A stretch of DNA of 64,000 nt from Geodermatophilus saharensis (GTDB lineage: Bacteria > Actinomycetota > Actinomycetes > Mycobacteriales > Geodermatophilaceae), in NCBI RefSeq assembly GCF_900188205.1, contig NZ_FZOH01000004.1:248001-312000 (forward strand). The letters are read 5' to 3'. A program made the position numbers and the translations under genes. Shown here piece by piece: positions 1-15,690 of this stretch (position 1 is its first letter; every line of letters begins with the position of its first letter). Under the pieces are notes generated by a model. That model was not told where the DNA came from and made no database searches. It was given only the letters and a program-made list of their open reading frames with translations.

Positions 1-1
1 G

Positions 2-2791
2 CGCGCGGGACTCGGGCTGACTGAGCAAGAGCTTCTGGGCCGTATCGACGACAACCTGAAGTCAGAGGTCATCGAGGGCCTGTTCTCCGGCGCCGGCCGG
101 GACTTCGAGTCCCTGGGCCTGGGCTGGCTCACGCTCGCCTCGGATCAGGCTCGGCCCGACCTGGAGCCGGCGTCCATGCCCGCGATCGCCCGGTCGAGCC
201 TCCGGGTCCTCGGCGATCTGCGGCGCTTCTTCGGACTTCGGGATCCCCGAGACAAGGCCCACGCACGATTGACGGCCTACTGGGACGCGGTCGCGCGCAC
301 GCACGGTCTTGACCCCGCGGAGGTCGCCAGCGGCGTCCGCGCCTTCTGGTCCGACGCCGTCCGCGATTACCTCATCGACCCTGCTCGAGTCACGATGCGG
401 CAACCCGGGCAGGAGGCTTGGATCTGCGGGAACTGCCGTCGCCAGCACCTGCATCGAGGTTCCGGCATCTGTACCCGGTGCCGTCAGCTTCTGCCGGTTC
501 AGGGCTCACCGACCCGTCGCGGACAGGACTACTACTCCTGGAAGGCCACGGAGCATCGGGGGCGCTTCCGGCTGAACAGCGCCGAGTTGACCGGCCAGAC
601 GGACAAGGTGGACGCCCAATCTCGCCAGGCACGGTTCCAGGGCGTCTTCCTCGATGAGGGCGGACGGGAGAGCCGCCTGGCCGATGGCATCGACTTGCTC
701 TCGGTGACCACGACTCTCGAGGCGGGGGTCGACATCGGCGCCCTCGAGCTCGTCGTGCTGGGCAACATGCCGCCCACGCGGTTCAACTATCAGCAACGGG
801 TTGGCCGAGCGGGCCGCCGGACTTCACCGGTGGCTGTCGCACTGACGGTGTGCCGCGGGCGTAGTCATGACGAGTACTACTTCGCCAGGCCCCACTCGAT
901 CACCAACGAGCCGACGCCCAAGCCGTACCTGGCGCTCGATCGCACCGAGATCCTGCGGCGGGCGCTCCGGAGTGAAGTGCTGCGGATGGCATTCGCCGAA
1001 CTGGGCCCGCAGCTCATCAAGACAAAGATCTTGTCCGACCTCACCAACAACCCCCACGGTCAGTTCGGTTTGACCGCCGAGTGGCCAGCGGTCAGACACC
1101 TCGTGCAGAAGTGGATCGACGAGAGGCGCGCCCAGGTCGAGGCGGCAGCCCAGGCTCTGTGCACGTTTGCTCCGGCCGACGTCTCCGCACAGAACTGGGC
1201 GGAGTGGGTACGCGACGACCTGGTGGCAACCATCGACCATGCCTGCAATCCCGCTGGCGGCCACGTCGAGCTCAGCCAGCGGCTGGCCGAGGCTGGCGCG
1301 CTGCCGATGTTCGGTTTCCCCACCCACGTGCGCTATCTCCACCTCAACCCGCCACAGAACTCCCGGCCTTGGCCGCCGTCCGGCGTCATCGACCGCGACC
1401 TGGGCATGGCCGTCTCACAGTTCGCTCCGCTCAGTGAGGTCGTCCGCGACGGACAGGTCTACCCCGTTGTCGGAGTGGCCGCGTTCAAGCCGGTGGGGAA
1501 CAAGCCTGTTCCGGAGGCCGAGCCCCTGGGATCCACGCGGCACCTCGCTGTCTGCCGGTCGTGCGCGCACCTGGCCGAGACAGACAGCAGCGCCGTTGGG
1601 GAGATGGACCCGTGCCCGCGCTGCAGCGCAGCTCCTGGCACCTACCAGGGACTCCAGCTCCGCGAGCCTCTTGGCTTCAGGGCCGGCCGCCCGAAGGACT
1701 TCGACGGCAACTTCTCATGGTCCGCACGCGCCATGGCGGCCCGGGCAATGACGGACCTGTCCAAGCTGATGCGCACGGAGGAGGCGGGCGTGACCGCCTT
1801 CAGCGGGCCGGGCACGCGCTACGTCATCAACGACAACGGCGGCAATCTTCACCGCTTCCGCCCGTCTGGCCCGTCCCCTTGGGGCGGGTACGTGTCGGTG
1901 GAGGCCGTCGAGAAGGGGCTCCTGCCGTCGGCGTTCGCGACGGGGGACGCGATCTCGGTAGCCCTGGGCGCAGTACAGCCCACGGACTTCCTGTTCGTCG
2001 GCTCCCGCCGTCCAGTGATGAGCGATCTCGGCTTGCGCCTGGACCTCGACACCAGCGCGATGCAGCAGAGCGGTGCCCCGGAGAGCGCCAACGCCAGGAA
2101 GGCCGCCTGGTACTCCCTGGCGTTCCTCCTAAGGACGGCCGCAGCGACGTACCTGGACGTCCAGACGCTCGAGCTCAGTGCCGGCATCTACAACGGCCTG
2201 GTGGACGACTCCCCGACCATGATGGCGTTCCTCGCGGACACCCTCGAGAACGGCGCCGGCTTCAGCACACATCTCGGCTCGCCAGACGTCTTCGACAAGC
2301 TCATGGACGGTCAGGTGCGCGAGTACCTCACCAGTCTTGAGGAACCCGCTCATGCGACGGAGTGCTCGGCTTCCTGCTACCGCTGCTTGCGGGACTACTC
2401 CAACATGGCCTATCACGCATTGTTGGACTGGCGTCTGGCACGAGACCTGCTCTCCGTCCTCCAGACCGGCCAACTCCCCATTGATCCCCATCGGGAGCGA
2501 CGGGCCATCACCAGTTGGGCTGAGGCGTACGGTGCTGAGCTGATCGACGAGCTGCCGTGCGCGGCGGCCGTCCTAGACAGTCAGCTCTACGGACGGGCCA
2601 TCGTTGTCGCCAAGCACCCGCTGGAGGCAAGCGAGACCACCTTGATCGCACCCCGTCTCGCTAGCGCGCTCGCTGCCGCGGAGGCCATGGAGCCGCCCGC
2701 GGACGCAATCGTCTTCGCCGACACTTTCACGCTGGACCGCGACCCGGGGGGCGTCATCAAGTCCATCCGCACGGCCACCGGTGGCCGATGA
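2..2791 (+). CDS. DUF1998 (MZB)-domain superfamily-2 helicase, 5'-truncated by window edge
   Basis: The frame is open from the first bases of the window, so the N-terminal part with the Walker A/DEAD motifs lies outside; about 929 codons are visible. The piece carries a zinc-finger-like CxxC-x10-CxxC motif (about nt 425-480), helicase motif V (VTTTLEAGVDIG) and motif VI (QQRVGRAGRR) at about nt 707-830, and near the C-terminus the cysteine cluster ECSASCYRCLRDYSN (about nt 2360-2405) typical of DUF1998/MZB domains of MrfA- and DISARM-type helicases. By family it is an ATP-driven DNA translocase. Its stop overlaps the next start (ATGA), so it is probably translated together with the nuclease gene, and with the NaeI gene behind it forms one operon. 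Role in restriction is inferred from context; it could also be a repair helicase. The last ~110 residues after the MZB domain are unassigned. Confidence 0.85.
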   Translation, partial: RAGLGLTEQELLGRIDDNLKSEVIEGLFSGAGRDFESLGLGWLTLASDQARPDLEPASMPAIARSSLRVLGDLRRFFGLRDPRDKAHARLTAYWDAVARTHGLDPAEVASGVRAFWSDAVRDYLIDPARVTMRQPGQEAWICGNCRRQHLHRGSGICTRCRQLLPVQGSPTRRGQDYYSWKATEHRGRFRLNSAELTGQTDKVDAQSRQARFQGVFLDEGGRESRLADGIDLLSVTTTLEAGVDIGALELVVLGNMPPTRFNYQQRVGRAGRRTSPVAVALTVCRGRSHDEYYFARPHSITNEPTPKPYLALDRTEILRRALRSEVLRMAFAELGPQLIKTKILSDLTNNPHGQFGLTAEWPAVRHLVQKWIDERRAQVEAAAQALCTFAPADVSAQNWAEWVRDDLVATIDHACNPAGGHVELSQRLAEAGALPMFGFPTHVRYLHLNPPQNSRPWPPSGVIDRDLGMAVSQFAPLSEVVRDGQVYPVVGVAAFKPVGNKPVPEAEPLGSTRHLAVCRSCAHLAETDSSAVGEMDPCPRCSAAPGTYQGLQLREPLGFRAGRPKDFDGNFSWSARAMAARAMTDLSKLMRTEEAGVTAFSGPGTRYVINDNGGNLHRFRPSGPSPWGGYVSVEAVEKGLLPSAFATGDAISVALGAVQPTDFLFVGSRRPVMSDLGLRLDLDTSAMQQSGAPESANARKAAWYSLAFLLRTAAATYLDVQTLELSAGIYNGLVDDSPTMMAFLADTLENGAGFSTHLGSPDVFDKLMDGQVREYLTSLEEPAHATECSASCYRCLRDYSNMAYHALLDWRLARDLLSVLQTGQLPIDPHRERRAITSWAEAYGAELIDELPCAAAVLDSQLYGRAIVVAKHPLEASETTLIAPRLASALAAAEAMEPPADAIVFADTFTLDRDPGGVIKSIRTATGGR

Positions 2792-3807
2792 AGGCAGGCG
2801 TCCGGCAATCAGGCGTCCCGTGGCTCTCCCCCACGTCTGCAGCGCGTCTTCTGACGTGCCCCGCGTCGGTGGTCGGGCTGGTGACAGGGCCTCCCCCACG
2901 AAGCCCCGCACCGTCGACGGGCACGTCCGCTGGCGCCCTGGCGCACGCGGCTCTGCAGCGTTGGGTCATGGCCGACGACTGGAGGTACGGCGACCGCGAC
3001 GGTGCGCTGGTCGACCACTTTCACGCTGTGGCCGAGGCTCGCAAGGTCGCTGTTGCCGCAGTCATGAACGGGCGCGTTACGGAGGCGCGACTAGAGCAGA
3101 GGGCGAGTTCACTCGGCGAGCTCATGCGGCAGGCGGGCGCCGACGCGACGGCAGAGGCGGAGGTCACCCTGCACGACAGCGAGCGCCGACTGTGGGGAAC
3201 GCTTGATCTCCTCATCACCTCAGACCGTGGTGTCTGGCTCATCGACTTGAAGTCCGGGATGGATGCTGCGCAGTCGTTGCTTCCGGCGGTCATCCTGAGC
3301 CAGCTTTCGATCTACAGCCACCTCGTCGCGGCAGTTCGCGGGAGGGCGCCAACCTGGGTGGGGGTCTTCAGTCTGCGTCAGGGCGCTAAGCAAGTGCCTG
3401 TGTCCCCGTCAGACCTGGGGTTGCTCGGCCTGCTGGACGAAAGGCGCTCCGCCTGGATGGCACACGACCGCCCCGCGTTGCCGGCGCCAGAGGTCTGCAG
3501 ATACTGCACCCGACGACCCGGATGCGACCCACACTGGATCGCTCTCCGGGCATGGGGAGGCGCGGACGGTGTCGAAGGCCAGCTGCTGCGCGCCCAAACC
3601 GCGGAGAACGGACGCACTGCCCTCCTGGTGCAGAACGCGACTGGCTCGGCATGGGTGTCCAATATGCGCGGTGAGGGTTTCCAGGAACTCGTCGGCCACC
3701 ACGTACGGGTCATGCGGATTCGTCGGCGTACGCCCGCCGGCCAGTCCAGCGACGCAGCGCAGTGGCAGGCAACCGATTCGTCCGCAATAGCTTCCGTTGG
3801 AGACTGA
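2788..3807 (+). CDS. PD-(D/E)XK (RecB/Cas4-like) nuclease with cysteine cluster
   Basis: A 339-residue protein. The middle shows the RecB-type nuclease signature in order: GTLD (about residue 140), LIDLKSG (D-x-K, about 151-157) and Q-x-S-x-Y shortly after. Near the C-terminus CRYCTRRPGC, together with an N-terminal cysteine (RLLTCP), has the layout of the 4Fe-4S-binding cysteines of Cas4/AddB-type nucleases. A further domain of ~70 residues follows. The ATG overlaps the helicase stop as ATGA, and the NaeI start is 2 nt behind the stop, so the product probably works with the helicase as an unwinding/degradation unit. Fe-S binding and partnership are inferences; the nuclease fold call is solid from the motifs. 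Confidence 0.82.
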   Translation: MKAGVRQSGVPWLSPTSAARLLTCPASVVGLVTGPPPRSPAPSTGTSAGALAHAALQRWVMADDWRYGDRDGALVDHFHAVAEARKVAVAAVMNGRVTEARLEQRASSLGELMRQAGADATAEAEVTLHDSERRLWGTLDLLITSDRGVWLIDLKSGMDAAQSLLPAVILSQLSIYSHLVAAVRGRAPTWVGVFSLRQGAKQVPVSPSDLGLLGLLDERRSAWMAHDRPALPAPEVCRYCTRRPGCDPHWIALRAWGGADGVEGQLLRAQTAENGRTALLVQNATGSAWVSNMRGEGFQELVGHHVRVMRIRRRTPAGQSSDAAQWQATDSSAIASVGD

Positions 3808-3809
3808 CG

Positions 3810-4826
3810 ATGCAGGACAGCATCTGGCCCCGCGACCAGCTGGGCATCGAATACGAGCCCATGGCGGAGCACGGGTCGGGCGACGCCGGTTTGAGCCTCG
3901 TCCGCCGCGAGCTTGAAGAGCTCGACCCCGACGGCGATCGCTTCGCTGCCGTCCTCCGTGACACCCTGGACCAGCTCCTGGATGGCCGGCGACGAGGACG
4001 CTTTGACTACCGCGACCTCTACAAGACCGAGAAGACGTACATGGGGACCCTGGTGGAGATCAATCTCCAGCGGGCGTTCGACTTCGAGGACGGCGACGTC
4101 ACCGACTACTCAATCGTCGACGTCGACGTCGACTGCAAGTTCTCGCAGCGGATCGGCGGCTGGGAGCTGGGGCCGGAGATGCTCGACCAGCTGTGCCTCG
4201 TCGTCTGGTGCTCGGACCGTGAAAGCTCGTGGCGGGCCGGCCTCGTCCGGGCGTCCGCAGACGTGCTGCGCGAGACGACCAACCGGGATGCCAAAAGGCG
4301 GCTCAACGACCTCGGCATGAGCCGCATCCAGTGGCTTTGGCCGGACCACGGTCGCCTGGCGGAGAACCTCCTGTTGCACCTCAACCCCGAGGTCCGCGAC
4401 CGGATCATGTCCGCGACCGGGCGAACTCGGCGCGCGAACCCAGTACAGGCACGCGTCAATCAGCTCTTCCGTGAGGTGCAGGGCCGGATCATCCGCCGTT
4501 CGGTCTTGGAGACCGTCGCACACGGAGCCGACGATCCGCTCAAGCGGGCACGCGGGAACGGAGGCGCCCGCGACAAGCTCCGGCCCGAGGGCATCCTCGT
4601 GCTGGGGCACCAAGACAACGATCCGGTGGTGGCAGAAGCCCTCGGCCTTCCCAGGCCGCGGAAGGGAGAGTTCGTCGCGGCTCGCGTAGTTGAGATAGAC
4701 GGTCCGACTTCGTCTAGACCTGCAGCGGAGATTTCGGGCCGCTACTACGCCATCGCCCTGCCTGGCGACGAGGCACAAGAAGGCCCCGAGGTGTCGCGGC
4801 AGCCGCCCACCCCCGCCATTTCCTGA
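3810..4826 (+). CDS. NaeI-family type II restriction endonuclease
   Basis: A 338-residue protein starting at the ATG 2 nt after the preceding stop, with GGAG at nt 3799-3802; an in-frame ATG at 3762 would overlap the nuclease gene by 46 nt and has no clear ribosome site. The catalytic series of NaeI (Glu70, Asp86, Asp95, Lys97) is matched at Glu83 (GTLVEINLQR), Asp99 (VTDYS), Asp108 and Lys110 (DVDCKFS) with identical spacing of 16, 9 and 2. NaeI is a type IIE enzyme that binds two GCCGGC sites and cuts GCC^GGC; the C-terminal half here corresponds to its second DNA-binding (CAP-like) domain. It is the third gene of the helicase-nuclease operon and is convergent with the NgoMIV-family gene. 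No methyltransferase is in the window. Exact recognition of GCCGGC is inferred from the family. Confidence 0.93.
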   Translation: MQDSIWPRDQLGIEYEPMAEHGSGDAGLSLVRRELEELDPDGDRFAAVLRDTLDQLLDGRRRGRFDYRDLYKTEKTYMGTLVEINLQRAFDFEDGDVTDYSIVDVDVDCKFSQRIGGWELGPEMLDQLCLVVWCSDRESSWRAGLVRASADVLRETTNRDAKRRLNDLGMSRIQWLWPDHGRLAENLLLHLNPEVRDRIMSATGRTRRANPVQARVNQLFREVQGRIIRRSVLETVAHGADDPLKRARGNGGARDKLRPEGILVLGHQDNDPVVAEALGLPRPRKGEFVAARVVEIDGPTSSRPAAEISGRYYAIALPGDEAQEGPEVSRQPPTPAIS

Positions 4827-4846
4827 GTCCCCACGAAGCAGCGAGG

Positions 4847-5584
4847 CTAGGAGTGGAGCAACGTATCCACGAGGCTCTCGTAGGGAAGCAGACGCCCTTG
4901 AAGGGTCAACTCCTGCCAGATATCACGTTCGAGATTTCCGGAGGGGAGGGCCATCGCTTCCTTGTGGAGCTCCCAGAAGGCGATGTGGTATGTCGCATCC
5001 ACTTCTCCCGTACCGCGAGCGATGGCCGCAAGACGGCTGGGCAAGGGCTCCGCGGTGACACAAATCAAGTGAGGGGTCCGCGCGCGACGATTATGGACCA
5101 TCTTTAGGAACTCATGGCGCGTGTTCTGCACCCGGTCGGACCGAATAGACCACTTACAGGAGACAGCGGCATGAAGCATGTCACGCGCCGCGTGCGGTAA
5201 AGGGCTCGCGACAGACACTGCAACATCAAGTTTGATGAGGTAATCCATGCCCAGCGCTGTTCGCAAGACTGGATAGCGATCGACGGCCTTCTGAGCTTCC
5301 GCCAAGTGGGCAAATTGATTGAAGTCGCTGATGACCACATTTCGACGGACCCGCCACTCGCTTGACTCATGCCCCTCTTGGAGTTCGGCGCAAAGATCCG
5401 CCCATACCGCCGCCTCGAGGTTACTCCCGAGAGTTTGCCCCTTCTCATGACTGACGCGGGTCACCTCGAGGGAATCGTTCACGCCGGCAGCTAGCTCGAC
5501 ACTAGTCTGGTTATCCTTGTCGGAGACATTGGGATACCCATTAGGACGCCAACCATAGAGTCGCTGCGCAAACGGAGCTGCCAC
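4847..5584 (-). CDS. NgoMIV-family type II restriction endonuclease
   Basis: A 245-residue protein from a GTG start; a stop lies only three codons upstream, so this is the first possible start. NgoMIV itself is about 40 residues longer. The hallmark SCKWSIRSDRVQN segment contains the Ser-Cys-Lys active-site motif (Lys144) followed 14 residues later by Glu158, the same spacing as Lys187/Glu201 of NgoMIV; Glu57 (NLEAAV) and Asp114 or Asp120 fit the other metal ligands. The following stretch VTAEPLPSRLAAIARGTGE is also characteristic. NgoMIV is a tetrameric type IIF enzyme cutting G^CCGGC, the same sequence as NaeI. The gene converges on the NaeI gene with a 20-bp gap. Its codons are less GC-rich than those of the neighbouring chromosome, which suggests recent transfer. 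Confidence 0.9.
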   Translation of the reverse strand: MAAPFAQRLYGWRPNGYPNVSDKDNQTSVELAAGVNDSLEVTRVSHEKGQTLGSNLEAAVWADLCAELQEGHESSEWRVRRNVVISDFNQFAHLAEAQKAVDRYPVLRTALGMDYLIKLDVAVSVASPLPHAARDMLHAAVSCKWSIRSDRVQNTRHEFLKMVHNRRARTPHLICVTAEPLPSRLAAIARGTGEVDATYHIAFWELHKEAMALPSGNLERDIWQELTLQGRLLPYESLVDTLLHS

Positions 5585-5720
5585 GGCTGGAGTTTAGCGG
5601 TTGACCTTACGCCGACCTTCCTGTGGCAACAGAGATGCACTCTTTGGAGGGAGAAGCTAGTCATCGTACCCACTGCGGCACCGGGTCTCGGCTTGCTAGT
5701 GTCACCACATGGTCTAAGCC

Positions 5721-7215
5721 TTGCCGCAGCGCTGCACCGAATGTGGCCACATCTACATCCCAGGAGAGCACGACGGCACCAGCCTGATTGATCTTGCAAA
5801 CTGGGAGTGCCCCGGCAACGGCGCCTTTTGCGGTGCCACCGCCGACAAGTATGAGTTGATCGAGCCCGGAAGCCCCCTCGAGGATGTGGACGAGGTCGAG
5901 GAGCGAGCGTCGTTTACGACGAGTGCAGCACACACGCGCAAGCTGACGGCAGAACGAGCAGATAAGGCCGTCACGGACTTGGCGCGGATGGTAGACGATG
6001 GAGATCTCGTCTTGAGGCCGGACTGGCAGGGATACTACGCCTGGTCCAACAAGCAAGCTTCCCAGCTCATCGAGTCACTTCTTCTGCAGTTGCCGATTCC
6101 GCTGATCTATCTCGCGGAGGAGGAAGACGGGTCATTCTCTGTCGTGGACGGCCAGCAACGTTTAACGGCGCTATATGAGTTTGTGCGTAACAAGCGGATC
6201 GACCCGCTCAAATCGGCACCTGTCACACTGTCCGGCCTCGACGTCTTCGACGAGCTCAATGGAAGGCTCTTCTCGGAGCTAGACCCGGCACAACAGAAGT
6301 TTCTCAAGAATCGCGAACTCCAGATCATTCGCATCAAGAGCGAGTCCGACCCCGACGTGAAGCTTGAGGTCTTCCGCCGGCTCAACACGGGGTCCGTGAA
6401 GCTGAATGCACAAGAGCTGCGAAATGCTGCGTTCCGAGGACCCTATAACGACGAACTCAAGAAGTGGGCGAGGAATCCCACCTTCCTCAAGATGCTCCGC
6501 GCGGACGCCAAGCCAGACATCCGCATGCTGGATGTGGAAATGATGCTGCGCGGAAGTTCTTGGATCAACCGCCGATGGCAGACGCTGACCAGCAAGAATA
6601 TTGGCCACTTCCTTGATGAGGAAATGGTGATTGGTCGTACGTACTCCGCCAAGAAGTTGAGTACGCTGGAGGCAGAAGCTCAAGAACGCCATCGACCTAA
6701 GCTGGCAAACTTTCGGCCCGCATGCGTTTCGTCGGTATATTACCGGCGCGAACGAAGAACCGGATGGTCAGTGGGAGTTGCGCCAGGTGAACAAGGCCCT
6801 CGATGACGTGGTGATGTATGGCTTTTCGTTGCGATCCAAGGCTCAGTATTGGCCTCATCTTGAAGCGATCCGGGAGTCTCTCATCGATCTGATGTCGAGT
6901 GACGCCAAGTTTGTTGACGCGATCACAGCAAGCACAACTGACCCGAAGCGTGTAAATTATCGCTTCACGACATGGCTAGCACGCCTCGAGGACGTAGTCG
7001 GCGACGACCCGCAGGCGCGCAACTTCAGCCAGGAACTCAAGGAGGAGCTATGGAACAAGTCTCCTAAGTGCAAACTCTGCAGTCAGGTCATCCGTTCCAT
7101 CGATGACGCGCACGTGCACCACATTGAGCACTACTGGCGAGGAGGCAAAACGATCCCTGCCAACGCGGCTCTAGCGCACCGCTACTGCACCCTTCATGAG
7201 GGAGGGGGAAAATGA
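5721..7215 (+). pseudogene. DUF262-HNH nuclease (GmrSD-like), interrupted by a +1 frameshift
   Basis: From a TTG start the protein has an N-terminal zinc-ribbon-like CTECGH...C...C segment, then the DUF262 core with SVVDGQQRLTALYEF (about residues 140-155). The frame closes at 6806 with nonsense sequence, while the +1 frame continues without loss of similarity (KNAIDLSWQTFGPHAFRR, then VNKALDDVVMYGF) and ends in an HNH module CKLC...HVHHIEHYWRGG...N-x-AL-x-H...C at 7069-7190. The break lies at 6672-6681; removing A6674 would read EAKLKNAIDLSW continuously. DUF262-HNH proteins are predicted modification-dependent or toxin-like nucleases found in defence islands. It may be a true pseudogene, phase-variable, or a sequencing error. 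GC content is visibly lower than in the chromosome to the right. Confidence 0.85.
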
Positions 7216-7665
7216 TCCGTCGGGACTATGTTCCCCATCTTGGCGTGACGGCAGTTTGCATTCTCGCCGCGTCGGACGCGCGATGAGCTTGAAACCGACC
7301 ATCGTGACGCCTTGTCGCGGCGGCCGACTTGCCCGCGGCCTCCATCTGCACTGCGGCAACGACTGGTCCGCTGCTGGAGTTTCGTGAGGTACTCGGCGTC
7401 TGCTGTAGCGCGTTGGCAGCGTTAAGCACTGAGGGGATGTTCACCGTCAGCAGCAGCCAGGCGTGTCGGCGCACCACCGATTCTCGAGTGTTTCTTGCGG
7501 ACGGGGCAAGCGAGCCGCTTGCGAGAAAGTCTGGAGACCGTGCAATACTACCTCAGTAGAGAGCAGGCGACCGCTAGGGCGCTCCGTGAGCTAGAAGCCC
7601 ACTGGCATGTGCAACGGCTGAGAAGACGAGCACTTCAAGTCCAGCGTTGGTGACGCTAGACGGTT
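7216..7665. other. Non-coding gap at the right edge of the defence island
   Basis: About 450 nt without a convincing gene. The short open frames here have no ribosome site, no recognisable motif and no consistent codon bias. The base composition is lower in GC than the DNA to the right, and the gap ends at the 3' end of the decayed GGDEF gene, so it probably marks the junction between acquired and native DNA. No tRNA, integrase or obvious attachment repeat was seen. Confidence 0.5.
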
Positions 7666-8699
7666 TTAGGCGTCCACCTTGTGAAGCACGCCGCGGCCGC
7701 GCTCCTTGGCGCCGTACATCGCCCGGTCCGCCAGCGGGAGTACCTCGTCCAGCGTCGTCCCGGGCGCAGCCATCGAGGGCCCGACGGCGGCTGACACCCG
7801 CACTGTCCGCCGTCCCACCTCCACCTCGTCCATCGGGCACGGCGGCCAGCCCGTGCCCGATGGCCTCCGCGGCGGCGACGGACACCCCCGGCAGCACCGC
7901 CACGAGATCGTCCCCGCCCGGACGACCGACCACGGCTCCCGGCAGCTTCTTCTCCACGTGCCGGGCGCAGCCGGTCGGCGAGCCGGACGAGCAGCTGGTC
8001 CCCCACCGCGTGGCCGCCGCGGTCGTTGACCTCCTTGAACCGGTCGACGTCCACGAACAGCACCGCTCCCCCGACGGCCAGCGCCGCGCGGCCGGTGTCG
8101 AGCAGGTGGCTGCGGTTGGCCAGCCGGGTCAGCGGGTCCTGCCGCGCCGAGCGCAGCAGCGCCTGGTGCCAGCCGTCGGCCTTGGTCGCCACCGCGGTCA
8201 GCCGGTCCACCGTCTCCTGCAGCCGCCGCGGCTGTTCCAGATCGGCCTCGGCAGCCAGCTCGGCCGTCGAGGAGGTCAGCACCTCGAGCACCGACTCCAG
8301 CGGCAACCCCGCCGCCACGACCTCCAGCGTCCGACCCTGCGCCGCCAGCAGCCCGGCGTCCCAGCAGTGCCCGGCCACCCGGCGCCGCAGCGACAGCACG
8401 CTGCGCACCAGCCGCACCTGGTTCTCCAGCAGCGCCTGTTCCGCGGGCGAGAACGCCCGCGGCTCGTCGTCGAAGACGCCGAGCGAGCCGAGGACGAAGC
8501 CGTCCTCGTCGATCAGCGGCACCCCGAGGTAGGAGCGGATGGCGCCGGCCGCCACGGCCGGGTTGTCGCGTTATACGGGGTGGTCGAGCGCGTCGGTCAC
8601 CTGCAGCGGCGCCCGCAGCGCCACCACGTACGCGCAGAACGACAGCTCGTCGGGCACGTGCAGGTAGGACGGGCGTCGGACGGCGGCGCTCACACGCAA
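7666..8699 (-). pseudogene. Decayed GAF-GGDEF diguanylate cyclase
   Basis: This is a close relative of the intact gene at 19612-20874 but carries many lesions. The ATG has become TTG (8697-8699); about 55 residues of the N-terminal GAF domain are missing between RVSAA and the conserved HVPDE[13 protein letters not shown]; an in-frame TAA stands at 8571-8573 directly after the DHPV motif, where the intact copy has TTC; and the reading frame shifts at least twice between about 7980 and 7800, so the C-terminus ([14 protein letters not shown]) is in a different frame from the GAF part. The active-site GGDEF reads GGDDL. The product cannot be a working c-di-GMP synthase. It sits at the edge of the defence island, so loss may be connected with island insertion. 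Confidence 0.88.
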
Positions 8700-8796
8700 G
8701 ACGTGAGCTGCGGGTCTTCCCTGTGGAATCCAAGCCGTCATGGCAGTGCCCAGTGAATGCCTTGACGGCGCCCACCGACGGCGGGACCGTCCGGCC

Positions 8797-9780
8797 GTGC
8801 GGACGCGCTTCACCGAACTGGTCGGCTGCACGGTGCCGGTCCAGCAGGCGCCGATGGGGCCGGTGTCCCCCCCGGACCTCGCCGTGGCGGTCGCCGACGC
8901 CGGCGGCGTCGGCACCGTCACCGCGCTCGGCACCCCGCCGGAGGCCCTGCTGCGCCGGCTGGACGGGATGCGCCAGCGGACAGCGGGGGCGCTGGCGATC
9001 AACGTCCTCACCACGGACGTCGACGACGACCTGCTCGCCGACCTCGCCCGGAGCGTGCGACTCGTCGACTTCTTCTGGCTCGACCCGTCCCCCCGTCAGA
9101 TCGAGGTCGCCCACGACGCCGGTGCGCTCGTGAACTGGCAGGTCGGGTCGCTCGCCGAGGCGCACGCCGCCGTGGACGCCGGCTGTGACCTGATCACCGT
9201 GCAGGGCGTCGAGGCCGGCGGCCACGTCCGCGGCCGCGAGCCGCTGCTCCCGCTCCTGCGCACAGTGCTCGACGCCGTCGACGTCCCCGTCCTGGCGGCC
9301 GGCGGCATCGCCGACGGTCGGGCACTCGCCGAGGTCCTGGGAGCTGGGGCGGACGGCGCCCGTATCGGCACGCGGTTCATCGCGACCACGGAGTCCGGCG
9401 CCCACCCGGCGTACAAGCAGGCCGTCGTCGACGCAGCCGGCGACTGCACCGAGATCACCGGCGCCTTCGCCACCGACTGCCCGCTGTGCGCCACCAGCGC
9501 CCGGGCGCGGGTGCTGCGCCGCGCGGTCGAGCGGGTCGCCGAGATCGACGACGACGTCGTCGCCCGGGTGGGCCGCGGCCGCATGCCCGTGTGGTGCGGC
9601 TCCGGCATCCCGCCGATGGCCGGCGCGGAGGGCCACGTCGACGCCATGGCGATGTACGCGGGCGCCGGCGTCGGCTCGGTCACCGAGGTCAAGCGGGCCG
9701 CGGAGGTCGTCGCCGAGCTGGTCGCGTTCCTCGATCAGTACGAGAGCACCGGCACTGCTGCACCAGGCACACCGTCGTAG
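8797..9780 (+). CDS. Nitronate monooxygenase-like (2-nitropropane dioxygenase family) FMN protein
   Basis: I choose the in-frame GTG at 8797 (VRTRFTELVG), the usual start of this family, over the ATG at 8740, which would add 19 unrelated residues; a GGCGGGA lies 11 nt upstream. The 327-residue TIM-barrel protein shows QAPMGPVS near the N-terminus, the EAGGHVRG flavin-binding turn in the middle, VLAAGGIADGRAL and GADGARIGTRF phosphate-binding strands, and EITGAFATDCP later on, typical of class I NMO/2-NPD enzymes. Members oxidise alkyl nitronates such as propionate-3-nitronate using FMN and O2. It is convergent with the GYD gene, so it is probably a single transcription unit. Confidence 0.82.
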   Translation: MRTRFTELVGCTVPVQQAPMGPVSPPDLAVAVADAGGVGTVTALGTPPEALLRRLDGMRQRTAGALAINVLTTDVDDDLLADLARSVRLVDFFWLDPSPRQIEVAHDAGALVNWQVGSLAEAHAAVDAGCDLITVQGVEAGGHVRGREPLLPLLRTVLDAVDVPVLAAGGIADGRALAEVLGAGADGARIGTRFIATTESGAHPAYKQAVVDAAGDCTEITGAFATDCPLCATSARARVLRRAVERVAEIDDDVVARVGRGRMPVWCGSGIPPMAGAEGHVDAMAMYAGAGVGSVTEVKRAAEVVAELVAFLDQYESTGTAAPGTPS

Positions 9781-9825
9781 CAGCAGGTGCCGTCCGAGGA
9801 GCTGCGCACCTGCCGCCTGACGCGG

Positions 9826-10158
9826 TCAGCTGCCGGGTGGACGGAAGACTTCGCGGCCGGTGCGCACCTTCCCCAGGATCGACTGCAGCTGGTCCTGGTC
9901 GAACAACTGGTGGGTGCCCAGCGTGCGCACCGTGCCGGTGCTGGCCGAGGTGAGCGTCACCGCCGCCGCGGTCTCGGCGTCCGGCGCCTCGAGGACCACC
10001 ATGCCGTCGGCCTCGCCGAGCATCCAGTACAGGGCCTCCAACCGCGCCCCCACGGCCTCGGCCGACGCCCGCACCGCGGCGGTGCGGTCACCGGGCTGCT
10101 GCACCAGCCGGTCCCACGTGTCCGGCAGGTAGGCGAAGAAGATGACGAACTTGGGCAC
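9826..10158 (-). CDS. GYD-domain protein
   Basis: A 110-residue protein (start GTG, MPKFVIFFAY; another GTG lies three codons upstream). It has the ferredoxin-like GYD fold: an opening beta strand, the W-x-x-L-x-x-x-P helix region, then VGARLEALYWMLGEADGMVV and a final hydrophobic strand before VRTLGTHQLF. GYD proteins are small stand-alone proteins of unknown function, distantly related to dimeric alpha-beta barrel proteins. It stands alone on the minus strand, convergent with the NMO gene; a weak inverted repeat GCAGGTGC/GCACCTGC at 9783-9813 between the two may act as terminator. Confidence 0.72.
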   Translation of the reverse strand: MPKFVIFFAYLPDTWDRLVQQPGDRTAAVRASAEAVGARLEALYWMLGEADGMVVLEAPDAETAAAVTLTSASTGTVRTLGTHQLFDQDQLQSILGKVRTGREVFRPPGS

Positions 10159-10405
10159 GGCGTCCACCTCGTCCCGGGTTGTCGGGCCGCCGATTGCACC
10201 AGCGGTCCCCCCGCGGCAGACCGACGCGGACCGCGGCCCCCGGGTCAGCCGAGCGCGCCCGGACGCGCCGCAGCAGGACGGGCACCGTCCGCCGTGTCGG
10301 CGACGCGCCGCCGACACGCTGATCACCGCGCCACCGTCCCCGGTTGCGGTTACGTTTCCGCAGGGTGACGCACGTCACTCCACCGACCCGGGGACAGGCA
10401 GGCCG

Positions 10406-11641
10406 ATGCTCTACACCGCCTACGAGCTCAACCGCCGCGCGAGCGCCCCCGCGGCCGCCGCGACGGCGTTCACCGCCCGGGCGCTGCACGCCCTGCCGGG
10501 CCCGCTCGCCACGAACCCCGCCGTCCGGCACGCCCGTGCCGCCTGCGAGATCCTCGCCAAGGCGCGCCCCACCCACGACCGCCCCGCCTACGGCATCGAC
10601 ACCGTGCGGGTCGACGGCCGCGACGCCGACGTCGTCGAGCGCCCCGCTACGGCCACGCCGTTCGGCACGCTGCTGCACTTCGCCAAGCCGGACGTGCCCG
10701 GCCAGCCCCGCGTGCTCGTCGTCGGCCCGATGTCCGGCCACTTCACCACGCTCATCCGGCCGACCATCCGCACGCTGCTGAGCGACCACGACGTCTACGT
10801 CATGGACTGGCACAACGCCCGCGACATCCCCACCGCCCACGGGCGCTTCGGCCTCGACGAGTACATCGGGCACGTCGTCGACGCGCTGCGCCACCTCGGC
10901 CCCGGCAGCCACGTCGTCGCCGTCTGCCAGCCCGCCGTCCCGGTGCTCGCCGCCGTCGCGCTGCTCGCCGCCGACGACGACCCCGCCCAGCCGGCCAGCC
11001 TCACCCTCATGGCCGGGCCGATCGACACCCGCATCAACCCCAACCGGGTCAACACCGCGGCCGCAACCAAGCCGCTCGAGTGGTTCGAGCGGCGGCTCAT
11101 CGACACCGTCCCCCGCCGCTACGCCGGCGCGGGGCGGCGGGTCTACCCCGGCGTCGTGCAGCTGACGGCGTTCATGTCGATGAACCCGCGCCGGCACTGG
11201 GGCGCGCACGCGCGGATGTACCGCGACCTGGTGCGCGGCGACACCGCCGCCGCCGCGGCCACCCAGGCCTTCTACGACGAGTACGGCGCGGTCATGGACG
11301 TCCCGGCCGAGTTCTACCTGGAGACGGTCGACCGCATCTTCATGCGGCACGAGCTGCCGCAGGGGCGCCTCACCTGGCAGGGCCGGCGCGTCGACCCCGG
11401 CGCCATCCGGCACACCGCGCTGCTCACCGTCGAGGGCGCCAACGACGACATCTGCTCCCCCGGCCAGACCGAGGCCGCCCACCGGCTGTGCACCGGCATC
11501 CCGGCCGAGCGCAAGCGCCACCACCTGCAGCACGGCGTCGGGCACTACGGCGTCTTCAGCGGCTCCCGCTGGGAGGCCGAGATCGCCCCCGTCGTCCGGG
11601 AGTTCATCGCGTCGGCCGACCGGGTCCCCGCCGCACACTGA
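10406..11641 (+). CDS. phaZ: Intracellular polyhydroxyalkanoate (PHB) depolymerase
   Basis: A 411-residue protein from MLYTAYELNRR, the typical beginning of cytoplasmic PhaZ enzymes. The alpha/beta-hydrolase nucleophile elbow reads AVCQPAVPVLA: a cysteine replaces the usual serine, as in the PhaZa1 type of Cupriavidus. Asp in EGANDDI and His in HGVGHYGVFSG complete the triad. It hydrolyses native amorphous PHB granules in the cytoplasm to release 3-hydroxybutyrate units for use as carbon reserve. The frame is open further upstream to 10142, but the family start is clearly at 10406. The FabG and thiolase genes of the same window (54957-57061) could serve the same polymer pathway, an inference. 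Confidence 0.88.
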   Translation: MLYTAYELNRRASAPAAAATAFTARALHALPGPLATNPAVRHARAACEILAKARPTHDRPAYGIDTVRVDGRDADVVERPATATPFGTLLHFAKPDVPGQPRVLVVGPMSGHFTTLIRPTIRTLLSDHDVYVMDWHNARDIPTAHGRFGLDEYIGHVVDALRHLGPGSHVVAVCQPAVPVLAAVALLAADDDPAQPASLTLMAGPIDTRINPNRVNTAAATKPLEWFERRLIDTVPRRYAGAGRRVYPGVVQLTAFMSMNPRRHWGAHARMYRDLVRGDTAAAAATQAFYDEYGAVMDVPAEFYLETVDRIFMRHELPQGRLTWQGRRVDPGAIRHTALLTVEGANDDICSPGQTEAAHRLCTGIPAERKRHHLQHGVGHYGVFSGSRWEAEIAPVVREFIASADRVPAAH

Positions 11642-11666
11642 CCGGCGCGCCGCCGTCGCGCTGGCC

Positions 11667-12593
11667 GTGCTGCTCGCAGCCGGCTGCACGGGCGGCGACG
11701 ACCCGCACGTTCCCCGGGTCCTGGACACCGTCGACCTCGACGCCGCCGTCGGCACCGACGTCGTCGTCCACGACCTCGCCGGCTCCCTCGTGCTCGTCGG
11801 CGACGCCGGCCGGCGCTGGCTCGTCCCGCTCGACGGCGGCGCCCCGACCCCCATCGACCCGGACAGCGAACTCGTCATCGGCGACGGAACGCCGCTCGTC
11901 GTCGGCACCGCGCTGACGCCGGTCGGTGGCGCGGCCCTCCCGCTGCCGATCGACGGGCCGCCCACCGCCGCCCTCCTCGACGGCGAGGCGCTCGTGCTCG
12001 CCCGCGACACCCGGCTGGCCGCCGTCGACCCCGGCACCGGCGCCGTCCGGGCCACCGCGGAGGCGCCCGCGCCGGTCACCGAAATCGCCCGCGCCCCCGA
12101 CGGCGACCTCGCCGCGCTGGCCGACGACCCGGCGGACGGCGTCCTGCTGCTGCGCCTCACTCCCGACCTGCGGCCGGAGGGCGACCCGCTCACGGTCGTT
12201 CCCGAGCGCACCAGCACGCCCACCGCGCTGCAGGTGACGGAGGACGGCACCGTCGTCGTCACCGCCTACGTCAACGAAGCGCGCGACGCCGGGCGGCTGG
12301 TCACCGTCGCCGGCGGCCGGGTGCGGACCGTCGCCGAGCTACAGGGCACCGACGCCACCGCCCTCGACGTCGCCGTGGTCGGCCGGATCGCCTACCTGGT
12401 GCTGTCGGCCTCGTACCACCCGGCCGAGCTGACGGCGGTCGACCTCACCACCGGCGCACGCACCGCTGTCGTCGGGCTGTGCGGCGGCGCCGGCGCCTTC
12501 GGTGCCCTCGCAGCGGACGGCACCACGGTGACCGTCGTCGGCTCCTGCATCGACGCCGACGGGCCGACGACCACCGCCTTCGTCATCGGCTGA
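11667..12593 (+). CDS. Beta-propeller-like lipoprotein, start uncertain
   Basis: About 309 residues made of repeated short beta strands with D-P-G-T-G-A-V-type turns, like WD40/NHL-style propellers. It is a clear paralogue of the protein at 21803, sharing the ordering of segments and the end VVGSCI...TTAFVIG. A lipobox LLAAGC occurs only seven residues after the GTG, too short for a signal peptide; upstream codons (GCCGCCGTCGCGCTGGCC) would complete a hydrophobic signal but contain no ATG/GTG/TTG. Translation may start at CTG 11661 or inside the depolymerase gene, or the start has been lost by mutation. Expected to be anchored outside the membrane; binding partner unknown. Confidence 0.7.
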   Translation: MLLAAGCTGGDDPHVPRVLDTVDLDAAVGTDVVVHDLAGSLVLVGDAGRRWLVPLDGGAPTPIDPDSELVIGDGTPLVVGTALTPVGGAALPLPIDGPPTAALLDGEALVLARDTRLAAVDPGTGAVRATAEAPAPVTEIARAPDGDLAALADDPADGVLLLRLTPDLRPEGDPLTVVPERTSTPTALQVTEDGTVVVTAYVNEARDAGRLVTVAGGRVRTVAELQGTDATALDVAVVGRIAYLVLSASYHPAELTAVDLTTGARTAVVGLCGGAGAFGALAADGTTVTVVGSCIDADGPTTTAFVIG

Positions 12594-14298: not shown

Positions 14299-15669
14299 AT
14301 GGGTGCGCCTCAGCGGCGCTACCGTCCCCCGGTGGACCAGCCCGGCACCGGCCGTCCGACCCGCAGCCGCCTCGCCCGCACCGCCCGGCTCGCCGCCCTG
14401 CCCGCGGCCTACGCCGGCCGGACCGCCGTCGGTCTCGGGAAGCGGATCGGCGGCCGCCCCGCCGAGGCGGTCGCGGCGCAGGTGCAGCAGCGCACCGCCG
14501 AGCAGCTGTTCGTCACCCTCGGCCAGCTCAAGGGCGGCGCGATGAAGGTCGGGCAGGCGATGTCGGCGATGGAGGCCGCCCTGCCCGACCAGCTGGTCGG
14601 CCCCTACCGGGAGGCGCTGGTCCGGCTGCAGGAGGCGGCGCCGGCGATGCCGACGGCGATGGTGCACGAGCAGCTCGCCCGGTCCCTCGGCGGAGGCTGG
14701 CGGGGCCTGCTCGGGGACTTCGACGACCGGCCGGTCGCGGCGGCCAGCGTGGGGCAGGTGCACCGCGCCACCTGGTCCGACGGCAGCCCGGTGGCGGTCA
14801 AGGTCCAGTACCCGGGAGCCGGCGAGGCGCTCGTCGCCGACCTGGGGATGCTGCAGAAGGCGGCTCCGCTCATGCAGACGGCCATGCCCGGCCTCGACGC
14901 CCGGCAGCTGCTGCAGGAGCTGCGCGACCGGCTGGTCGAGGAGGTCGACTACGCGCGGGAGGCCGACGCCCAGACGGCGTTCGCCGAGGCCTACCGGGAC
15001 GACCCGGACATCTGCGTCCCCGACGTGCTCGCCGCCGAGGACCGCGTGCTGGTCACCCGGTGGATCGACGGGACTCCCCTGTCCCGGGTGATCGCCGACG
15101 GCAGCCAGGACGACCGCGACCGCGCCGGCCTGCTGCTCGTGCGCCTGCTCGCGTCGTCCCCCGTGCGCGCCCGCCGGCTGCACGGCGATCCCCACCCCGG
15201 CAACTTCCGGCTGCTGCCCGACGGCCGGCTCGGCGTCCTGGACTTCGGCGCCACCGAGGCACTGCCGTCCGGCTGGCCGGCCCGGCTCGGACCGCTGCTC
15301 GCCGCCGGACGGGACGGCGACGCCGCGGCCCTGCACCGCGTCGCGGCGTCGGCAGGCCTGCTCCGGCCGGACCAGGTTCCCCCGCAGGCGCTGCTGGCGC
15401 TGCTCGACCCGTACCTGCAACCGCTGCGCACCGACGCCTACCGGTTCACCCGGGCCTGGATGCAGGAGCAGACCAGGGTCGTCTCCGACCCGTTCAACGC
15501 CGCCTCGAAGACCCAGCGCCGGCTGACCATCCCGCCGCGCCACCTCCTCCTGCAGCGCGTGGCCGCCGGGCTGGCCGGCGTCCTCTGCTCGCTGGGCGCC
15601 ACCGTGGCCGTCGACGGCGAGGTCCGGCGCTGGCTGCCCGGCTACGACAGTGGACCGCCGACGCCGTGA
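14299..15669 (+). CDS. ABC1/AarF/UbiB-family atypical kinase
   Basis: Start taken at ATG 14299; GTG 14284 lies inside a palindrome and GTG 14332 is another candidate. The ~456-residue protein has the UbiB-family KxGQ motif (GGAMKVGQAMS), the alanine-rich loop AAASVGQVHRA, the VAVKVQYPG lysine, then the catalytic loop LHGDPHPGNF and the metal-binding VLDFGAT. Such ATPases/kinases act at membranes in isoprenoid-lipid (quinone) metabolism; in actinobacteria their substrate is usually unknown. No transmembrane segment is obvious at the C-terminus. Confidence 0.85.
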   Translation: MGAPQRRYRPPVDQPGTGRPTRSRLARTARLAALPAAYAGRTAVGLGKRIGGRPAEAVAAQVQQRTAEQLFVTLGQLKGGAMKVGQAMSAMEAALPDQLVGPYREALVRLQEAAPAMPTAMVHEQLARSLGGGWRGLLGDFDDRPVAAASVGQVHRATWSDGSPVAVKVQYPGAGEALVADLGMLQKAAPLMQTAMPGLDARQLLQELRDRLVEEVDYAREADAQTAFAEAYRDDPDICVPDVLAAEDRVLVTRWIDGTPLSRVIADGSQDDRDRAGLLLVRLLASSPVRARRLHGDPHPGNFRLLPDGRLGVLDFGATEALPSGWPARLGPLLAAGRDGDAAALHRVAASAGLLRPDQVPPQALLALLDPYLQPLRTDAYRFTRAWMQEQTRVVSDPFNAASKTQRRLTIPPRHLLLQRVAAGLAGVLCSLGATVAVDGEVRRWLPGYDSGPPTP

Positions 15670-15690
15670 CCGCTCGACCGGCCGGCGTCC

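Follow-up and report, generated by a model that had tools for sequence, protein, structure and literature searches.

The window, a stretch of 64,000 nt from Geodermatophilus saharensis (GCF_900188205.1, NZ_FZOH01000004.1, positions 248,001-312,000), opens with the 3' part of a gene for a DruE-type Druantia helicase (1..2791, + strand; PADLOC DruE4 with E-value 0 on both parts, Pfam Helicase_C 1.2e-06). Its start lies outside the window at G000:C16:245308, which is position 13309 of L002, a stretch that reaches further upstream. The next gene encodes a DruK-like PD-(D/E)XK nuclease (2788..3807, + strand; PADLOC DruK 2.5e-118, Pfam PDDEXK_1 2.3e-13). Both genes are located upstream of a NaeI-family endonuclease gene and on the same strand (3810..4826, + strand; Pfam NaeI 5.1e-102, PDB 1ev7 7.3e-106), whose open frame also carries a GTG at 3762. 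A gene for a short NgoMIV-family endonuclease is found at 4847..5584 on the opposite strand. The first-pass annotation had described two adjoining endonucleases of these families, and the open reading frames and family matches confirm this: both genes are intact and lie tail to tail with a spacing of 20 bp. The GC content of the NgoMIV-family gene is lower than that of its neighbor (0.583 vs. 0.670). Over the first 8 kb of the window (positions 1-8000) GC amounts to 55-69%, compared to 74-76% over positions 8000-12000, a pattern as in an acquired island. Downstream of the pair, at 5721-7215, DUF262/GmrSD_N and HNH parts are encoded in two reading frames and matched by one PADLOC model (NsnA); either gene decay or an error in sequencing would account for the split. 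In Klenkia a different GmrSD gene is present near the pair (L053:5652-7541).

The gene pair closes a Druantia-type cluster, in which PADLOC models for DruF, DruL, DruE4, DruK and DruM2 are matched. Moving away from DruE, the upstream genes are DruL, DruF, a Vsr gene located between DruF and M2, the C5-methylase gene M2 (L002:8242-9594, - strand, outside the window and roughly 10.2 kb upstream of where NaeI starts), a gene for an HNH_2 nuclease (L002:7233-8240, + strand), the C5-methylase gene M1 (L002:5568-6668, - strand) and, left of the island, a TmtA-like gene (L002:1-3342). With a DruE-type helicase and neighboring partner genes, the cluster belongs to Druantia by its gene set, and its role is predicted to be anti-phage; the Druantia proteins of L080 show just 30-48% identity to those of the window. 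M1 and M2 alike have DruM2 models as their best PADLOC matches, M2 scoring 732.6 bits with the DruM2 model vs. 594.9 with a type II model. M2 could therefore be Druantia's own methylase, which would count against a restriction-modification (R-M) unit with two endonucleases. The abstract of PMC13192584 describes the DruE protein of Druantia III as a helicase-nuclease that works on DNA intermediates; by analogy, it is plausible that the Druantia-type proteins process restricted DNA ends.

The NaeI-family protein matches Pfam PF09126 at near full length (profile positions 3-286 of 288). The catalytic residues E70, D86, D95 and K97 are all present, in line with the first-pass annotation, which had listed them as E83, D99, D108 and K110, and they are intact in all 22 NaeI rows aligned from paired loci. 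In L056 the catalytic Glu is replaced by Arg, and no methylase was detected in this stretch. The recognition site of NaeI is GCC^GGC (one review passage prints GCC|CCG, apparently a misprint). The NaeI protein of L047, from a genome of the order sample described below, is identical to PDB chain 1ev7 over 304 residues (1.00 when rounded to two decimals). According to a passage of PMC4081073, NaeI and other type IIE enzymes bind a second site through an effector domain and are thereby stimulated. Transferred from the prototype, type IIE behavior and blunt cleavage of GCCGGC would be expected for the window protein as well. Other arrangements of NaeI-family genes were also observed: in L043 (6783-10887) two of them, one strongly diverged, flank Vsr and one M1-type methylase, and on the Rhodococcus opacus B4 plasmid pROB02 (L150, 5655-16885) an M2-type methylase, an HNH endonuclease, NaeI and Vsr form a row that adjoins DUF1998, helicase and NERD genes.

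The short protein belongs to the NgoMIV fold. The active site residues E70, D140, K187 and E201 of NgoMIV correspond to E57, D120, K144 and E158, which bears out the claim that this active site is preserved, and the CCGG-reading R-(D/E)R motif is represented by R148, D150 and R151. The roles of these residues, the site G^CCGGC and the reading of its CCGG core by R191, D193 and R194 are given for NgoMIV in passages of PMC6344858 and PMC4652773; the outer G:C pair is read by Q63, S192, D34 and R227 (PMC4652773). The outer contacts D34, Q63, S192 and R227 are D22, Q50, S149 and R184 in the window protein. Across 84 unique NgoMIV sequences D34 is conserved in 83, R227 in 83 and S192 in 82; the minor-groove contact Q63 is present in the window, yet in just 21 of the 84. 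Since one of two patterns used for the search included R191-S192-D193-R194, the invariance of this segment is partly due to selection, and the specificity argument is carried by D34 and R227, which lie outside these patterns. The identity of the outer-contact residues predicts GCCGGC specificity without proving it. With only a GCCGGC methylase for protection, an enzyme of looser specificity, such as RCCGGY, should be lethal. The active site is intact in 24 of 25 paired NgoMIV rows (duplicates included); the row of the paired locus L134 shows gaps at D34 and Q63, and Ser replaces E70. About 20 residues fewer separate the catalytic Asp and Lys in the window protein than in prototype NgoMIV; because of this shortening a type IIF tetramer is not to be assumed, and the short enzyme may differ from NaeI in its site needs. 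Tandem NgoMIV-family paralogues, one of them diverged, lie beside an M1-type methylase in L061 (8788-10471), a stretch that is the same as L112 of Mycobacterium sp. GA-0227b.

The same gene pair was sought in other actinobacterial genomes, as the first-pass annotation had proposed. Using the short NgoMIV alignment as query and one genome per species, we found 452 relatives; the best 80 loci were kept, and 21 of them also have NaeI within the stretch. Eleven of these paired loci are from Streptomyces, two from Catellatospora and one each from Klenkia, Nocardiopsis, Kibdelosporangium, Phytomonospora, Glycomyces, Micromonospora, Actinoplanes and Jiangella. Both genes of the 11 Streptomyces loci share a strand, and 15-88 bp separate their aligned parts; Vsr comes next and then a convergent methylase, which in L082 and L083 is about 5 kb more distant. 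Vsr is present in 20 of the 21 paired loci, and 19 of the 21 stretches contain exactly one detected methylase, a count that refers to methylases found by M1/M2 similarity in stretches of up to 10 kb per side, some of which end at contig ends. The exceptions are L136 with two and L063 with none, the M2 gene of the latter being located just outside the stretch, in L143. In a sample of 298 genomes of the order, 16 carry NaeI, 10 NgoMIV and four both (Fisher p 0.00097; p 0.0073 without the window's genome), and all four co-occurrences lie within 3 kb. A sample of 394 genomes of the class, which has some genomes in common with the order sample, contains 26 with NaeI, 12 with NgoMIV and five with both (p 0.00049; p 0.0031 without the window's genome); four of the five pairs lie within 2 kb, and in the fifth (G563) the families are on different contigs. 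Co-occurrence above expectation in two samples, together with pairing in 21 of 80 loci, shows that the pairing is not due to chance. Searches of mobile elements with the NgoMIV query yielded 16 plasmid records and one phage record, those with the NaeI query, against plasmids only, three plasmid records; no plasmid record was matched by both queries.

Which site M2 modifies can be approached through its relatives. Over aligned columns M2 shows 55% identity both to the methylase beside NaeI in L047, which we infer to be M.NaeI, and to the NgoMIV-adjacent methylase of Neisseria gonorrhoeae (L149); M.NaeI and M.NgoMIV are both placed in the M2 half of the methylase trees. The segment PT[IL]VGGSKKHGGADLGPTR[AS]KRAW is common to M2, Klenkia M2, M.NaeI and M.NgoMIV and occurs with small changes in two Streptomyces methylases of paired loci; we take it to lie within the target-recognition part of C5-methylases. 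These similarities argue strongly that M2 reads GCCGGC. The observed/expected ratio of GCCGGC was calculated over 200 kb per genome and is 0.95 in the window's genome and 0.99 in Klenkia, while two relatives that lack both endonuclease genes have ratios of 0.94 and 1.05; no depletion signal is visible across the four genomes, which counts neither for nor against GCCGGC as the site.

Four PF00145 matches were found in the window's genome: besides M1 and M2, contig C17 carries one further gene of each type. On that contig (L153, G000:C17:235500-255400) the second M1-type methylase (75% to M1) and an HNH_2 nuclease next to it lie at 7967-10106, and the second M2-type methylase (14371-15672, 54%) follows at a distance of about 4 kb; L153 has no NaeI or NgoMIV match. 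M1 also adjoins the HNH_2 nuclease in the island, and neither has a counterpart in Klenkia. The two may thus form a separate unit, a guess from their position here and on C17. In the flanks examined for three close relatives of the HNH_2 nuclease (L198-L200) no close M1 relative was found (best 34%, L200).

Klenkia marina (G064), which belongs to the same family as the window's genome, has an identical gene order at the locus, with NgoMIV, NaeI, DruK, DruE, DruL, DruF, Vsr and M2. Identities to the window proteins are 92% for NgoMIV, 91% for NaeI, 88% for DruK, 96% for DruE and 94% for M2. We searched for the methylase families PF00145 and PF01555: the only PF00145 match in this genome is M2, there is neither a PF01555 methylase nor an HNH_2 relative, and the locus stretch itself has no M1 or HNH_2 match. 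M2 would therefore have to protect Klenkia against both endonucleases if both are active, barring a methylase of another family. In Glycomyces harbinensis (G105), which has both endonucleases, the single PF00145 match is of the M1 type and lies beside the pair; one PF01555 methylase is encoded elsewhere in this genome. G216 has three PF00145 matches. The first-pass claim of one shared methyltransferase thus stands for relatives, with one PF00145 match each in Klenkia and Glycomyces and one methylase in 19 of 21 paired stretches, and is weakened for the window's genome, where four C5-methylases mean that sharing is not forced; one methylase serving the pair is likely there, too.

The relationship between methylase and endonuclease was followed on a methylase tree of 96 rows, 93 of them with a partner state (60 NgoMIV only, 23 both, 10 NaeI only). 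Trees were calculated with FastTree only, after removal of the aberrant methylase rows L077 and L096 and of six duplicate loci. At least 20 partner changes are needed over the 93 rows; 200 label shuffles required 30 changes on average and never fewer than 24, so the observed states are more clustered than shuffled ones, a point against the reading of one common site. Partner states are locally conserved but often exchanged, in the M1 and M2 halves alike. The M1 half contains 27 NgoMIV-only, one NaeI-only and six cases with both, and the M2 half 31, eight and 14, respectively. One M1-type group includes all three states (NaeI only in L043, both in L131, NgoMIV only in L109), with methylases that are 66%, 65% and 68% identical to M1, respectively. 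Exchange of endonucleases under related methylases is predicted by one common recognition site and makes it likely that M1-type methylases read GCCGGC, too.

Could the two genes instead belong to independent R-M units of different specificity that are merely neighbors, M2 serving NaeI and M1 serving NgoMIV? M1 and M2 are both present in the window's genome, M1-type methylases accompany 27 of the 62 NgoMIV-only loci, and the NgoMIV-family gene differs from its neighbor in GC content and strand. Klenkia marina, however, retains both endonucleases at 91-92% identity without M1 or any PF00145 methylase besides M2. The M2 type accompanies NgoMIV-only loci (31) as often as the M1 type does, NaeI also occurs with the M1 type (one NaeI-only locus, six with both), and NgoMIV proteins from both methylase settings retain the outer G:C contacts. 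We therefore regard independent units as unlikely.

It is still less probable that both proteins act in one complex with one specificity and one cutting subunit, for which LlaJI is the two-subunit precedent (PMC11779793). The tight same-strand tandem of the 11 Streptomyces loci would suit such a heteromer, but each protein has a full active site and each occurs alone: among 94 loci, 62 have NgoMIV without NaeI and 11 NaeI without NgoMIV, and a methylase was detected in 58 and nine of these, respectively. Equally improbable is that one of the genes is a hitchhiking, non-functional remnant. Decay does occur in the island if the split DUF262/HNH gene is taken as an example, and the NgoMIV row of L134 has lost E70 and is gapped at two DNA contacts; both open reading frames are nevertheless intact in the window and in Klenkia, as are the catalytic residues in the paired rows (22/22 for NaeI, 24/25 for NgoMIV).

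The locus is thus best explained as a type II R-M unit in which two non-homologous endonucleases probably share one site. That both enzymes cut the same site, as the first-pass annotation had proposed, is well supported by the comparative evidence, namely the kinship of M2, the Klenkia locus, the NgoMIV contacts and the swapping of partners. For these particular proteins this site would be GCCGGC, as judged from sequence comparison. Vsr family proteins repair T:G mismatches left by deamination of 5-methylcytosine. In the proposed mechanism, M2 would methylate a cytosine in GCCGGC of the host, and Vsr would limit mutation at the methylated cytosines through mismatch repair. NaeI and the short NgoMIV would each cleave unmethylated GCCGGC of invading DNA and, judging from the prototypes, leave blunt ends and 5' overhangs, respectively. 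The Druantia-type cluster (DruF, DruL, DruE, DruK) could take up the cut ends, and M2 may serve both this cluster and the R-M unit. A possible benefit of keeping two different endonucleases for one target would be that the two cutters differ in the sites they require, in the ends they leave and in how readily they are inhibited.

A unit with two such endonucleases would be a novel form of type II R-M for which we found no prior paper in the open PubMed Central (PMC) literature. Searches there returned no paper on the NaeI-NgoMIV gene pair (none by title for NgoMIV with NaeI), none on two endonucleases and one methyltransferase sharing one recognition sequence, none on the NgoMIV tetramerization loop, none on Druantia together with NaeI and, among the papers listed for Druantia with a methyltransferase and restriction endonuclease, none with such a pair in its title; a search on two endonucleases of the same recognition sequence in a gene cluster brought up PMC11779793, discussed below; the papers listed for DruK, DruL and Druantia type IV were unrelated word matches. 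The pair may be present in REBASE as predicted genes.

Compared to known systems, the unit resembles the NaeI R-M system in its endonuclease family, with a near full-length match, in its active site and in the related methylase, which lies next to the gene in the prototype. The prototype locus L047, however, contains NaeI, Vsr and a methylase, with no NgoMIV match in 19.9 kb. The type IIF NgoMIV R-M system of N. gonorrhoeae is not paired with NaeI as is the case here. Two endonuclease genes per R-M locus are described for LlaJI and for a type II cluster of Clostridium cellulovorans (PMC11779793); the two LlaJI proteins form one heterodimer according to the same source, whereas here each protein appears from its sequence to be a complete enzyme and is also found alone. 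The upstream genes fit the Druantia models DruF, DruL, DruE4, DruK and DruM2, and the locus differs from Druantia in carrying two attached type II endonucleases.
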